Positions 16,031 through 34,903 of a stretch of DNA of 34,903 nt are shown one piece after another. A program made the translations under genes and the position numbers. The notes beneath the pieces are model-generated. The model made no database searches and was not told the origin of the DNA. It saw only the letters and a list, made by a program, of their open reading frames with translations. The stretch comes from Burkholderiales bacterium. Lineage in GTDB: Bacteria > Pseudomonadota > Gammaproteobacteria > Burkholderiales > Burkholderiaceae_C. The stretch's first letter is position 1. Each line of letters begins with the position of its first letter. The DNA lies in the NCBI GenBank assembly GCA_017302495.1, contig JAFLDG010000008.1, positions 1 through 34,903 of the forward strand, in the 5' to 3' direction.

Positions 16031-16798
16031 TCACCGGCTGGCACGGTCGGCCGGGCCGGCGGGGGGAGGTGCGGATGCCGGGCCTGGCAACGGCGCGGAT
16101 GCCGAGCTGGCCGCGACGGAGGCGCTGAGCGGTGGTCCTTGCCACTTGCCGCGGCGCTGAAGTTCCTGCACCAGCGTGTCGCGCGGGTATCCGAGTTCGG
16201 CTGCGCGCCGGGCCTGCGCGGCTGCCTCCTCGTAGGCGCCGATCTCGACATAGACGAGGCCAGCGTTGAAGTGCGTCAGCGGGTTGTCGCCGGCCTGATC
16301 AACGACCATCTTCAACTGGGCGAGTGCCTCGGGCTGTCGCCGGCCGCCGCCCAGGTAGCTGGCGTAGAGCATCCGCGCCACGACGTCGTCCGGCGCGATC
16401 ATGAAGGCGCGTTCGAAATAGCAGTCGACCGTGAACGAGGCGCCGGCAGGCTGATCGGTCTTCTCACGTGCGGCGAGCCGGATCAGAGCCGCCAGGGCCC
16501 GATGATGGTTGGGGTAGCCCCAAAGCGTGAAGTCCAGATCCGAGCCAAGCGCCATGCCGCGCTGCATTGGTCGCACCAGGGCCTCGACATTGGGGCCAAA
16601 GTGAAAGTTCTCGACGACCTTCAGCCGCGGACTGGGTTTTCGATAATCTTCGGGGGGCAGTCGATCGCTTCGACTGAAACTGCCGCAAATCCATCCCGGC
16701 GGCGTCGCCGGCTGCGCGCAGGCGACCACGCCGATCAGGCCCAGACCGGTTGCAACCGCGGCACGGCGTGCGCAGGTGCGCCAGCGCGCGACTCTCAT
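16031..16798 (-). CDS. Secreted TPR-containing protein, possible lipoprotein
   Basis: This protein of 255 residues begins with a basic segment and a hydrophobic core, AAVATGLGLIGVVAC, ending in VVAC followed by AQP. It can be read as a lipobox with Cys as residue +1 or as an AxA signal peptidase I site. The middle has TPR-like helices, for example ARMLYASYLGGGRRQPEALAQL and FNAGLVYVEIGAYEEAAAQA, with the Leu/Gly/Ala/Tyr spacing of TPR units. The C-terminal 40 residues are Ala/Pro/Ser rich and probably disordered. TPR proteins in polysaccharide export loci often scaffold assembly at the periplasmic side. I chose ATG at 16798 because it places the signal at the N-terminus; ATG at 16816 is also possible. 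No strong ribosome binding site was seen. Confidence 0.6.
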   Translation of the reverse strand: MRVARWRTCARRAAVATGLGLIGVVACAQPATPPGWICGSFSRSDRLPPEDYRKPSPRLKVVENFHFGPNVEALVRPMQRGMALGSDLDFTLWGYPNHHRALAALIRLAAREKTDQPAGASFTVDCYFERAFMIAPDDVVARMLYASYLGGGRRQPEALAQLKMVVDQAGDNPLTHFNAGLVYVEIGAYEEAAAQARRAAELGYPRDTLVQELQRRGKWQGPPLSASVAASSASAPLPGPASAPPPAGPADRASR

Positions 16799-16892
16799 GA
16801 CGCATCGAACAAGCATGGCAGGGGATTGTGGGACATCGTCCGCGCCCGGCGCGCCGGAAGCCCCGGCAGGAATGCGCACCTCCAGGTAACGC

Positions 16893-17768
16893 TCAGGGTC
16901 TCTTCCCCGAACCCAGCGTCTGGATGACTTCTTCCAGGCGCGCCTGGATATCCGGCCCGTAGTTCCGCTTCAGGTAGCGGAAGACAAGGGCGCACGGCAA
17001 GCGCAGGCGCGAGTAGGCGTCCGGATCGAGGCCCAGCGCCTCCTGCAGCGCCGTGGGGTCAAAAGCGTGCGAAAGATCGCCAGCCCGCCCGTGTGCACGT
17101 GCCCAGTCCGCCGCCTGCCCGAACGAGTACTCCAGGGTAAAGAGGTCGAGGCCTGGCAATGCCACGGCACCGAAGTCTTCCCAGTCGAAGACCACGAGCT
17201 GCCGGTCGTCGCAAATCCCCAGGTTGTTCATCACCAGGTCGCCGTGCTGGGGGATGCTGGGCAGCCTGCACAGCAAGGGGCCCAGTTCGTCCAGTGCCGG
17301 CTCGGCTAGGTCGCGCAGGGGGTGCTCCCGGTAGAAATCGTGCACGGAACGCCACCACGGTCTAGGCTGGGGCTCCTGCTTCGGCGAGCCAAGGGACCGT
17401 GCCCGCTGGAAGAACCGGATCAGACCTTCGCGGACGGCCGGCGCATCTTGGGCGCTGCCGAGGACGTCCACCGTGACCGCCGCGAAGTCCACGGCGCGTG
17501 TCACGAGCAGGTTCAAGACGCCTGAGCGCGCGTACCCGACGAAGTGCGGGGCGTGATCGGGGTAGGCCCGCGCGGCGGCGGCGCAGCGTTCGGCCTCGAT
17601 CTCGAGGTCGACGAGGTCGCTGAACTTCACGAAGGTGTCGGGTCGGCCGTGGCGCGTCAGCACCATCGACAAGGATGCGCCCTGCGAGAGGTAAATGTTC
17701 TTCGCGTAGACCCGGCTCGTGTCGAACCACCCTCGTGCGTGGATGGTCGCCAGGACCTCGCTCAACAT
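16893..17768 (-). CDS. Aminoglycoside phosphotransferase-like kinase
   Basis: This 291-residue protein has the APH/choline kinase fold. K48 in FVKFSD fits the ATP-binding Lys. QHGDLVMNN (174-182) provides the catalytic D177 of the HGDxxxxN motif, and VFDWEDFG (193-200) provides the metal-binding D195. The family phosphorylates small hydroxylated molecules; in a polysaccharide locus a sugar, polyol or lipid head group is more likely than an antibiotic, but the substrate is not visible. ATG at 17768 lies seven bases inside the end of the upstream gene, showing translational coupling. It is separated by 94 bases from the TPR protein gene downstream. Confidence 0.78.
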   Translation of the reverse strand: MLSEVLATIHARGWFDTSRVYAKNIYLSQGASLSMVLTRHGRPDTFVKFSDLVDLEIEAERCAAAARAYPDHAPHFVGYARSGVLNLLVTRAVDFAAVTVDVLGSAQDAPAVREGLIRFFQRARSLGSPKQEPQPRPWWRSVHDFYREHPLRDLAEPALDELGPLLCRLPSIPQHGDLVMNNLGICDDRQLVVFDWEDFGAVALPGLDLFTLEYSFGQAADWARAHGRAGDLSHAFDPTALQEALGLDPDAYSRLRLPCALVFRYLKRNYGPDIQARLEEVIQTLGSGKRP

Positions 17769-33078: not shown

Positions 33079-33330
33079 TCAACGACCGAGCTTGGAAGCG
33101 ACGAAGTCGCGCAGGCTACCGACGGTAGCGAAGGTGTCGCCGCTGATCTCGTCGTCGTCGACGGTGATGCCCAGACGTTCCTCGAACGCGGTGATCAGCG
33201 CGACCACGCCCATCGAATCGAGTTCGGGCAACGCGCCGAGCAGCGGCGTCGATGCGCTGAAGCCAGAACTGCGGCCGCCCAGGTTCAGGGCCGTTTCGAG
33301 GATGCTGAGAACTTGCGCCTGGGTGTCCAA
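33079..33330 (-). CDS. Second acyl carrier protein
   Basis: This 83-residue acyl carrier protein has S39 in ELDSMGVVALI as the phosphopantetheine site, an acidic helix II/III region (AFEERLGITVDDDEI) and the closing helix GSLRDFVASKLG. It is only distantly similar to the ACP at 28280, so the two are not a recent duplication. It is the first gene of an operon with a deacetylase-like protein, an acyltransferase 3 and a GNAT-like protein. The only start that gives a whole domain is TTG at 33330, with GGGG about nine bases before it on the coding strand. I found no ATG or GTG alternative in the frame upstream. Confidence 0.82.
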   Translation of the reverse strand: MDTQAQVLSILETALNLGGRSSGFSASTPLLGALPELDSMGVVALITAFEERLGITVDDDEISGDTFATVGSLRDFVASKLGR

Positions 33331-33483
33331 GGAGTGCCCCGATGTCTTGAAGTGTGCGATTCTAGGCAGCGCGTCAGACGCTCAACTGACTAGCGAGGCA
33401 GGCAGGTGCCCGGCATCCGAATGCCGAGGAGCCTTCGCGTGTCGTTGTGCGCGCCGAAGACTCGTTGTCGCCCAACGAATAGC

Positions 33484-33542
33484 GTTTATCTGACGCGCTG
33501 CGACGGCATCGAAGCGTCCGGCGCGACCCGCGTCAGATAAAC
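33484..33542. repeat. 14-bp perfect inverted repeat with 31-base spacer
   Basis: GTTTATCTGACGCG at 33484-33497 is repeated inverted as CGCGTCAGATAAAC at 33529-33542. The arms are much more AT-rich than the surroundings. It lies on the 3' side of the IS91-type transposase gene, where these elements have a replication origin or end, but it does not match an end I can name. It could also be a recombination site or a terminator-like structure. Confidence 0.6.
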
Positions 33543-33555
33543 CCCGTTGAACTGA

Positions 33556-33572
33556 ACCGCCGCACCGGCGGT
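33556..33572. other. GC hairpin near the IS91-type element end
   Basis: ACCGCCG at 33556-33562 pairs with CGGCGGT at 33566-33572 around three bases. IS91-family origins include a short hairpin near the element tip, so this may mark that end. The call rests on position only. Confidence 0.35.
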
Positions 33573-33812
33573 GGGATGGGCAGTGTAAGTTTCAGGCGCC
33601 GCTGCGGGCAATGACGCAAGGGCCGCAGGCGGCTTGCGCCGACGCGAACGGCGGCATCGGTGCCGGTGGCCGTGGAGGATCGGCCGGACATGCGACGCTG
33701 CAGGCCCGATGTGTTCGGCGACGAGGAGGGCGTGGTGGCCGCAGGCACGGCATCGGCCGCATCGCGCGGTGCTGCGCGATGAACCGTTGCGCTGCCAGAC
33801 ACACGCTGCGCC

Positions 33813-34903
33813 TCACGGCGGACCCCGGCAGGCGGCGGCGATCGCGGCCAGCGCCGCGCGGTCGGCCGGCAGCAACTGCACGCAACGCCAGCGGCCCGTG
33901 TGGCAGCGCGTGCAGCGATCGATGTCGATGGCGGCTACGCGGCGCATGAAGGCGGCGGCGTCCTCGGCGGCGCGCGGGTTCGGTGCCGGCATCGCCAGCA
34001 GTGCTCGGGCCAAGGTCAGGCGCTCCGTCTTGGCTGCCGGCGCCAGCCACCCGTAATGGCGGATGCGCTTGAAGCCGCCGGGCAGCACATGCTGCAGGAA
34101 GCGAGCGACGAACTGCACGCCGTCGACGGCGACGACCCGCTTGCCGCCGTGCTCGTCGGCGCGCACGCGCAGCAGCACCTCGTCGCCGCGGATGGCGACG
34201 AGTCGCTCCGTGCCGATGGCGGTGCGCTGCGTGTAGCGGCTCAGGTAGTCCAGCACCGCCGCGGGACCGGCCAGCGGCGTCTTGGCGTACACCACCCAGT
34301 CGTGAGTGGCCAGCGCGCGACGCCGCCGATCGCGCTGCGCGGGGTCGGCGGCCGGATCGCGCGGCAACTTGCCGCCGTCCTCGGCGCGCCGCAGCACCTC
34401 GAGGAACTTGGCCCGGAACACCCGCGACAGCGCGTGCACCGGGAACAGGAAGCGCCGAGATCGCTTGGGCGCGACCCAGCAACTCGCACCGTCGGCGTCG
34501 CGGCCCAGCGCCCCGCAGGCCATCAACGCGTGCACATGGATGTGGCGCCGCAGGTCCTGGCTCCAGGTGTGCAGCACCAGCGTGAAGCCGCCGATGCCGC
34601 CGAGCCACCGGGGATCGGCGGCGAACTGCGTCAAGGTGTCGGCCACGCCGCGCAACAGCGCCTCGCACACCCAGCGCGGCTGCACGGCGGCCAGTGCGTT
34701 GAGTTCGTGCGGCAGCGTGAAGACCAGGTGGGCGTACGGCACGTCGAGCAACTCGGCCATGCGCGCCGCCCGCCAAGCCTCGCGCTGGCGGGCGCCGCAG
34801 CGCGGGCAGTGCCGGTTGCGGCAGGAATGCCAGCGCCAGCCTTCAGCGCCGCAACCGTCGCAGCACAGCCGCTGCCCGCCGAGCGCCGGCGTGCGGCAGC
34901 GGG
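33813..34903 (-). CDS. IS91-family transposase (5' end outside the window)
   Basis: The frame is open from the right edge to the stop at 33813, giving 362 residues of a HUH-type rolling-circle transposase. Near the edge it has a zinc-binding domain with LCCDGCGAEGWRWHSC and RNRHCPRCG. The catalytic domain starts at YAHLVFTLPHELNAL. HIHVHALM is the HUH metal motif, and YLSRYTQRTAI contains the Tyr residues expected to attack DNA. Conserved late segments are FLQHVLPGGFKRIRHYGWL and CTRCHTGRW, a second Cys pair that may also bind zinc. Starting at the internal ATG 34760 would drop the zinc domain, so that start is rejected. The left end of the element lies in 33480-33600; the other end is outside the window. 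Confidence 0.9.
   Translation of the reverse strand, partial: RCRTPALGGQRLCCDGCGAEGWRWHSCRNRHCPRCGARQREAWRAARMAELLDVPYAHLVFTLPHELNALAAVQPRWVCEALLRGVADTLTQFAADPRWLGGIGGFTLVLHTWSQDLRRHIHVHALMACGALGRDADGASCWVAPKRSRRFLFPVHALSRVFRAKFLEVLRRAEDGGKLPRDPAADPAQRDRRRRALATHDWVVYAKTPLAGPAAVLDYLSRYTQRTAIGTERLVAIRGDEVLLRVRADEHGGKRVVAVDGVQFVARFLQHVLPGGFKRIRHYGWLAPAAKTERLTLARALLAMPAPNPRAAEDAAAFMRRVAAIDIDRCTRCHTGRWRCVQLLPADRAALAAIAAACRGPP
33813..34903 (-). mobile_element. IS91-family element, partial
   Basis: The transposase and the flanking repeats show an IS91-type element at the right edge. Only the part from the transposase stop rightward is certain; the element probably extends left to about 33484 and continues beyond base 34903. 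IS91 elements make no target duplication, so the edge cannot be fixed that way. Confidence 0.7.

Follow-up and report, generated by a model that had tools for sequence, protein, structure and literature searches.

Why should an IS91-type element have a perfect 14-bp inverted repeat at its edge, when elements of this type are not expected to carry long terminal inverted repeats? This question is raised near the right-hand end of the window, which is the whole stretch of 34,903 nucleotides of DNA that was analysed. A sequence-only reading had marked the repeat at 33484-33542, and had likened it to the core site of a recombinase or to the terminus of an element, more than to a terminator. The repeat is there as described, with two perfect arms (GTTTATCTGACGCG) that are separated by 31 nt. 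No other perfect 14-bp inverted repeat in the window has its arms within 60 nt of one another, and at least one such repeat, comparable with ours, was present in 5 of 200 dinucleotide shuffles of the window. The shuffle count alone makes a chance origin unlikely, and no more than that. Searches for further copies of the arm found none in the window with up to three mismatches, and, when one mismatch was allowed, none elsewhere in the assembly (4.5 Mb, 89% complete). A partial third copy, which had been placed at 33370, does not hold up: this is a 13-nt match at 33366-33378, in host DNA outside of the element, and matches of this type are at chance level (10 in the window, compared with a mean of 6.4 over 30 shuffles). 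When folded as single-stranded DNA the region has a z-score of -2.9, with an equally good fold in 1 of 200 shuffles. No terminator-like site was found in 33300-33900, and a search of Rfam for known RNA families gave no match.

The relatives of the element provide an answer. We compared the best 80 of 137 loci that encode the transposase in the searched genome contigs. The copies remain similar over about 2.5 kb and have sharp ends. It had been envisaged that aligned copies might all end far from the repeat, and that no other copies of it might exist; the opposite was observed, with the copies ending 8 bp past the repeat. The right end of this mobile element of about 2.5 kb is at 33476 and is formed by an attC-like site, whose inner stem is the inverted repeat. 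The order of the element is G|TTGAACTAAACCGC, a tyrosine recombinase gene, an IS91-type Y2 transposase gene, and then GTTCAAC, the hairpin and GCTATTCG|TT. Across copies the left end reads GTTGAACTAAACCGCT... and the right end ...GCGGTTCAGTYCAAC-NNN-GTTTATC...GATAAAC-GCTATTCG; the ends differ in two distant relatives from the Acidobacteriota (L088 and L089). In 31 of the 38 loci first examined, the hairpin is found 180-385 bp downstream of the transposase match, and six of the seven loci that were scored as misses (L042-L047) have a hairpin of different letters.

The element in the window is cut by the end of the contig (Table 1). The window's transposase matches the Pfam families Y2_Tnp (163 bits) and Zn_Tnp_IS91 (76 bits). 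A second contig of the same genome, C346, overlaps the end of the window by 24 bases, and the transposase frame continues across the join for a total of 424 codons. The C346 half has the same left end as other copies and a recombinase frame of 333 codons. This is the tyrosine recombinase gene that had been suspected to the right; it is located within the element, between the left end and the transposase gene, past the right edge of the window. The last five bases of the window (34899-34903) disagree with the overlapping C346, which is probably an assembly error at the contig end. By eye, a motif of the GAAACTTACA..GCCC type is seen again in other copies, about equally far from the right end.

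Table 1. Positions of the element and of its parts, in the window unless a contig is named.
Feature	Position	Strand or contig	Basis
Right (transposase) part of the element, continuing on C346	33476..34903	-	Ends of aligned copies
Left end of the element	L006:374 = C346 about 16778	contig C346	Aligned copies
Arm 1, putative inner stem of the attC-like site	33484..33497	.	Compensatory changes in relatives
Arm 2, putative inner stem of the attC-like site	33529..33542	.	Compensatory changes in relatives
7-nt side of the asymmetric spacer between outer and inner stem	33477..33483	-	7 nt in 63/63 sites
3-nt side of the asymmetric spacer	33543..33545	-	3 nt in 62/63 sites; 2 nt in L092
R''-type core GTTCAAC (33546-33552) and extension complementary to the element's left end	33546..33560	-	
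R'-type core at the host junction, G|TTGGGC	33470..33476	-	Crossover between 33476 and 33475
IS91-type Y2 transposase gene, cut by the contig end	33813..34901	-	Pfam
Right-end motif of the GAAACTTACA..GCCC type	33578..33597	-	By eye, uncounted

The attC sites of integrons have a characteristic layout of R-box, spacer and L-box. When the window's own ends are joined as a circle, the junction is predicted to fold as a single hairpin, in which a stem of GTTCAAC and GTTGAAC leads through an uneven internal loop to the inner stem, the 14-bp repeat. This predicted fold is attC-like in its layout. The folded asymmetric site is 83-86 nt long, and was located in 68 of 83 loci, the search pattern having missed the other 15. 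The arms pair at a mean of 11.8 of 14 positions in 47 distinct arm pairs, compared with 10.4 (maximum 10.8) when partners were re-dealt 200 times, and several Watson-Crick pair types occur at arm positions 6, 7, 8, 11 and 12. The spacer is asymmetric, 3:7 nt, in 62 of 63 sites, and 2:7 in the remaining one. Between the left end and the R'' side, 11-14 of the 15 positions can pair in 53 of 54 elements, as a raw count that has no shuffled control. We accept the repeat as real because it is conserved at the ends of relatives. The occasional shuffled window with a similar repeat speaks for the alternative of a chance repeat or a transcription terminator; however, the compensatory changes at the ends of relatives refute it, no terminator-like site was found, and we give this alternative almost no credence. 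The earlier comparison with a recombination site or an element terminus is supported, since the site is laid out like an integron recombination site.

At the level of sequence, the ends of the element follow the rules of integron cassettes, RYYYAAC ... G|TTRRRY. For example, the window copy has GTTCAAC as its R'' core and GTTGGGC as its R' core. From 97 distinct right-hand strings we dropped 15 with a base other than C in second place (14 in which the hairpin had been read on the reverse strand, and one unrelated string in L018); the 82 that were retained still include one reverse reading (L110) and one palindromic string (L119/L121/L132). GTT is found at the terminus in 76 of these 82 strings (GTTA in 57, GTTG in 11, GTTC in 5 and GTTT in 3), and the full GTTRRRY in 33. 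On the left, GTT precedes GAAC in 62 of 64 distinct flanks, with L017 (GAT) and L088 (CAA) as exceptions. Counted by copy, the right flank is GTT in all 12 copies near integrons and in 53 of the 56 others, while the full GTTRRRY is found in only 6 of the 12 near integrons. Among copies for which no IntI was found, 22 of 53 GTT flanks are GTTRRRY, compared with 138 of 2407 background GTTs (p = 4e-14, with copies treated as independent). The exceptional junctions are G|GT in L015, G|AT in L017 and L079, and G|CT in L117/L130. In the related copies L017 and L079, AT replaces TT after the G at both the left end and the right junction. This is a hint of a dinucleotide that is common to the circle and the target.

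Some copies sit in integrons. The E. coli plasmid pM216_AC2 has one copy (L091) between two cassettes of a class 1 integron, where the annotation gives, in this order, intI1, aac(6')-IIa, site-specific integrase, IS91 family transposase, aadA4, qacEdelta1 and sul1. On its left the copy adjoins the attC of aac(6')-IIa, with ...CAGGTG|TTGAAC at the junction, and on its right it meets G|TTAGGC ahead of aadA4. The left flank of a Thauera copy (L044) reads ...CCCTAAAACAAAG|TTGAAC, which places the copy at attI1, and adjoins an IntI1 of 99.7% identity. These two relatives lie in an integron at the G|TT crossover, and the window's own copy does not. The pM216_AC2 element has no other full copy in the plasmid collection, where one Polaromonas record matches over 16% of the query at 72%; none was found among complete E. 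coli genomes at megablast sensitivity; and its right end matched only itself.

We surveyed the neighbourhood of 69 left ends for IntI, 60 of which have at least 300 bp of upstream sequence. A minus-strand IntI match was found upstream of 20 of these 60, and in 17 a divergent IntI or a remnant starts within about 320 bp. Nine of the 17 nearby matches are at least 270 residues long and the others are remnants or cut; the match of 49 residues at L057 may be an attI likeness only. The IntI matches of L012, L047 and L091 are farther from the left end. A divergent recombinase upstream of a Legionella plasmid copy (L093) was also considered as an IntI, and a profile search ruled this out. Separately, on a contig labelled as Chloroflexota (L086, about 1349-1396), a stretch of about 46 bp that resembles attI1 lies between the right and left ends of consecutive copies.

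What kind of recombinase does the element encode? By its sequence it is IntI-like, without the I2 region of about 40 residues. The integron integrase model TIGR02249 is the first NCBIfam match for the recombinases of L015, L046, L052 and L091, is level with NF040815 for the window's own recombinase (L006), and is the second match for L028, L092 and L093. None of the element recombinases searched reaches its cut-off (at most 178 bits, against 265), and the match is broken in two at the place of the extra region of IntI. The span from the GKG to the HxLRH motif is 66-75 residues in 51 of 65 element frames (the other 14 lack the first-motif pattern and were left out), compared with 107 in 9 of 9 IntI proteins, and all 51 lack I2; in Xer-type rows of the alignment, which covers 16 rows, the span is 72-76. 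Likewise, a search of the PDB matched IntI4 in two stretches around the I2 gap, with an archaeal Xer scoring higher. A tree of 74 rows places 58 element recombinases in one group (support 94/99) and nine IntI proteins in another (100/100), with both set apart from five Xer-type rows (100/98); long branches in this tree drew a warning from the program, the outgroup is thin and the root is for drawing only. R135, K162, H228, R231, H254 and Y263, which we take to be the catalytic positions, are invariant in 15 aligned recombinases. The predicted structure of one relative's recombinase (mean pLDDT 83, pTM 0.64) has the integron integrase IntI4 (2A3V) and XerA (5HXY) as joint best Foldseek matches, at modest TM-scores of 0.53-0.56.

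Many copies, the window's included, sit outside integrons, also at G|TT sites. The C346 flank of the window copy has an asparagine-synthase-like gene, which scores below the cut-offs of that family, and the window has acyltransferase and phosphopantetheine-binding genes at 28-32 kb. No empty site for this insertion was found in 100 genomes, its own included: no match spans the junction, the window's own genome gave only the two halves, and other matches are mostly in the coding region beside the element. Of 200 genomes of the family, 12 have the right-end pattern, for which a reversed control pattern gave no matches, and 9 have the left-end pattern. In one genome of a single contig (G121) there are five right ends, three of which retain a left end, and three left ends in all.

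These copies bear on the possibility that the element is a passive gene cassette, which integron integrases alone move between attI, attC and secondary sites, with both genes as cargo. The cassette-type ends and the positions within integrons would be as expected, and the window's genome does have an intact IntI, on contig C156 (454.7 bits). However, of six tested genomes of the family with the site, one (G027) has an IntI over the cut-off; the other five, the single-contig G121 among them, have none. Both genes are also conserved together with the ends in many lineages. A later loss of IntI could explain part of this, as two of the G121 copies adjoin IntI remnants (L123 does not) and a fragment is found in G130. 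We consider a passive cassette quite unlikely. The many copies outside integrons, some of them in genomes without an intact IntI, suggest instead that the element is probably autonomous.

Partial copies are also found. The loci L101-L134 are 34 loci at 21 distinct sites, as several sites appear twice. For 18 of the 34 (10 distinct sites) there is no transposase match in the available stretch. Homology between these right ends and intact elements extends 100-760 bp upstream. One of the G121 copies, L127, has a split transposase. Other arrangements were noted in passing. The lone right end of L133 (4183, reverse strand), with 149 bp of homology and no transposase match, is just 3' of what looks by eye like a parC gene. 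The lone right end of L128 (4115, reverse strand) is 3' of two small genes that by eye are toxin-antitoxin-like. At L116/L186 (G027:C262, about 16293-16935) a left and a right end are only about 640 bp apart, which looks like a shortened, non-autonomous form of the element. At L132/L119/L121 (G027:C301, about 46332-46395) the hairpin is fully palindromic, and a mirror image of the right side replaces the R'' side.

We think it likely on balance that the repeat serves as inner stem in the attC-like site of an IS91-type element that encodes an IntI-like recombinase and moves via a single strand joined at G|TT. The element ends, the R'' and R' cores with their G|TT crossover, the conserved asymmetric fold and the copies inside and outside integrons all point to this at the sequence level. 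By analogy with IS91, the Y2 transposase would act at the hairpin end and make a single-stranded, probably circular copy of the element. In the circle the ends would be joined as ...TATTCG|TTGAAC. The left end (GTTGAACTAAACCGC) would meet and pair with the R'' side, and the junction would fold into a long asymmetric hairpin. The element's own I2-less recombinase, a resident IntI or both may then cut at G|TT, and the cut hairpin would be joined to attI, attC or a secondary G|TT site with the same core. Replication would complete the insertion. Several points count against this explanation. A one-point exchange at G|TT leaves the AT at both ends of L017 and L079 unexplained. The 100 genomes searched gave no empty site for the window's insertion, the inner stem has other letters than a canonical attC, and a full GTTRRRY is seen on the right in only half of the 12 copies near integrons. 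Furthermore, according to passages of PMC7790495, I2 is held to enable IntI to use folded strands, and the element's recombinase lacks it.

In the strongest rival, the hairpin would be the oriIS, with the Y2 transposase alone nicking and inserting at GTTR targets. The recombinase would then have some side function, such as that of a resolvase, and the resemblance to attC would be a convergence around GTT. IS91 prefers GTTC or CTTG next to its oriIS; of the right flanks here, 76 of 82 have GTT and only 5 have GTTC. The hairpin is on the transposase side, where we would expect an oriIS, and truncated copies that retain the right end do exist. That said, the exact attI1 and attC crossover points are used despite other GTT triplets nearby, and RRRY is enriched after GTT. 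Nor would a transposase acting alone account for a left end that is complementary to the R'' side, or for an IntI-like recombinase gene between the two ends. We regard the oriIS explanation as somewhat unlikely, and prefer the joining of a folded attC-like end by a recombinase.

How did integron integrases begin to use folded single strands, and how do cassettes first acquire an attC? Because it can occupy an integron in just the way that a gene cassette does, the element may be related to those that gave rise to integrons. Here an I2-less enzyme akin to IntI still exists, in company with attC-layout ends and a single-strand transposase, and both questions thereby become testable. An unlikely possibility is that of an autonomous 'transposing cassette', whose single strand comes from the HUH transposase and whose folded attC-type end is joined by an I2-less sister of IntI. 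Integrons may then have arisen when such an element gained I2 and lost its transposase, with stranded right ends being one route for ordinary genes to become cassettes. If true, the right ends left beside genes, such as the parC-like and toxin-antitoxin-like genes above (both identified by eye), would be a route to an attC. Moreover, an IS91-type element can occupy the array of a resistance integron as a cassette. The annotation of pM216_AC2 names it only as 'IS91 family transposase' and 'site-specific integrase'.

The element has parts in common with several known systems. With the IS91 family it shares the Y2 HUH transposase, with both Pfam domains in the window protein and a match over the cut-off to the IS91 transposase model NF033538 in the relative L015. 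It differs in having a tyrosine recombinase as second gene, an attC-like right end and G|TT at either junction. ISfinder and TnPedia list members of the IS91 family in which the second gene is integrase-like. Like an integron cassette, the element begins with TTGAAC (TTRRRY), ends with RYYYAAC...G in a folded asymmetric site, and is found in integron arrays. Unlike a cassette it encodes its own recombinase and transposase, and many copies are outside integrons; the letters of its inner stem also differ from those of a canonical attC such as the one to the left of the pM216_AC2 copy. Its recombinase resembles IntI in its TIGR02249 matches, first or joint first for several copies, and in its Foldseek match to 2A3V, but scores below the cut-off, with a split match and I2 missing.

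We have not found a description of the full combination, an IS91-type transposase with a recombinase and an attC-like end, in the literature searched, which was largely without subscription papers. The IS91-like element ISShvi3 adjoins an attC in Shewanella sp. Choline-02u (PMC9229058, section 3.4). This is a single case, and section 3.4 is silent on a recombinase gene, on the ends and on dispersed copies. A further parallel is with the CTX phage and other elements that integrate as single-stranded hairpins via Xer recombinases, as described in passages of PMC7790495. A hairpin of single-stranded DNA is joined by a tyrosine recombinase in these elements, as we propose for the IS91-type element; they use an enzyme of the host, whereas the IS91-type element has its own recombinase and HUH transposase.
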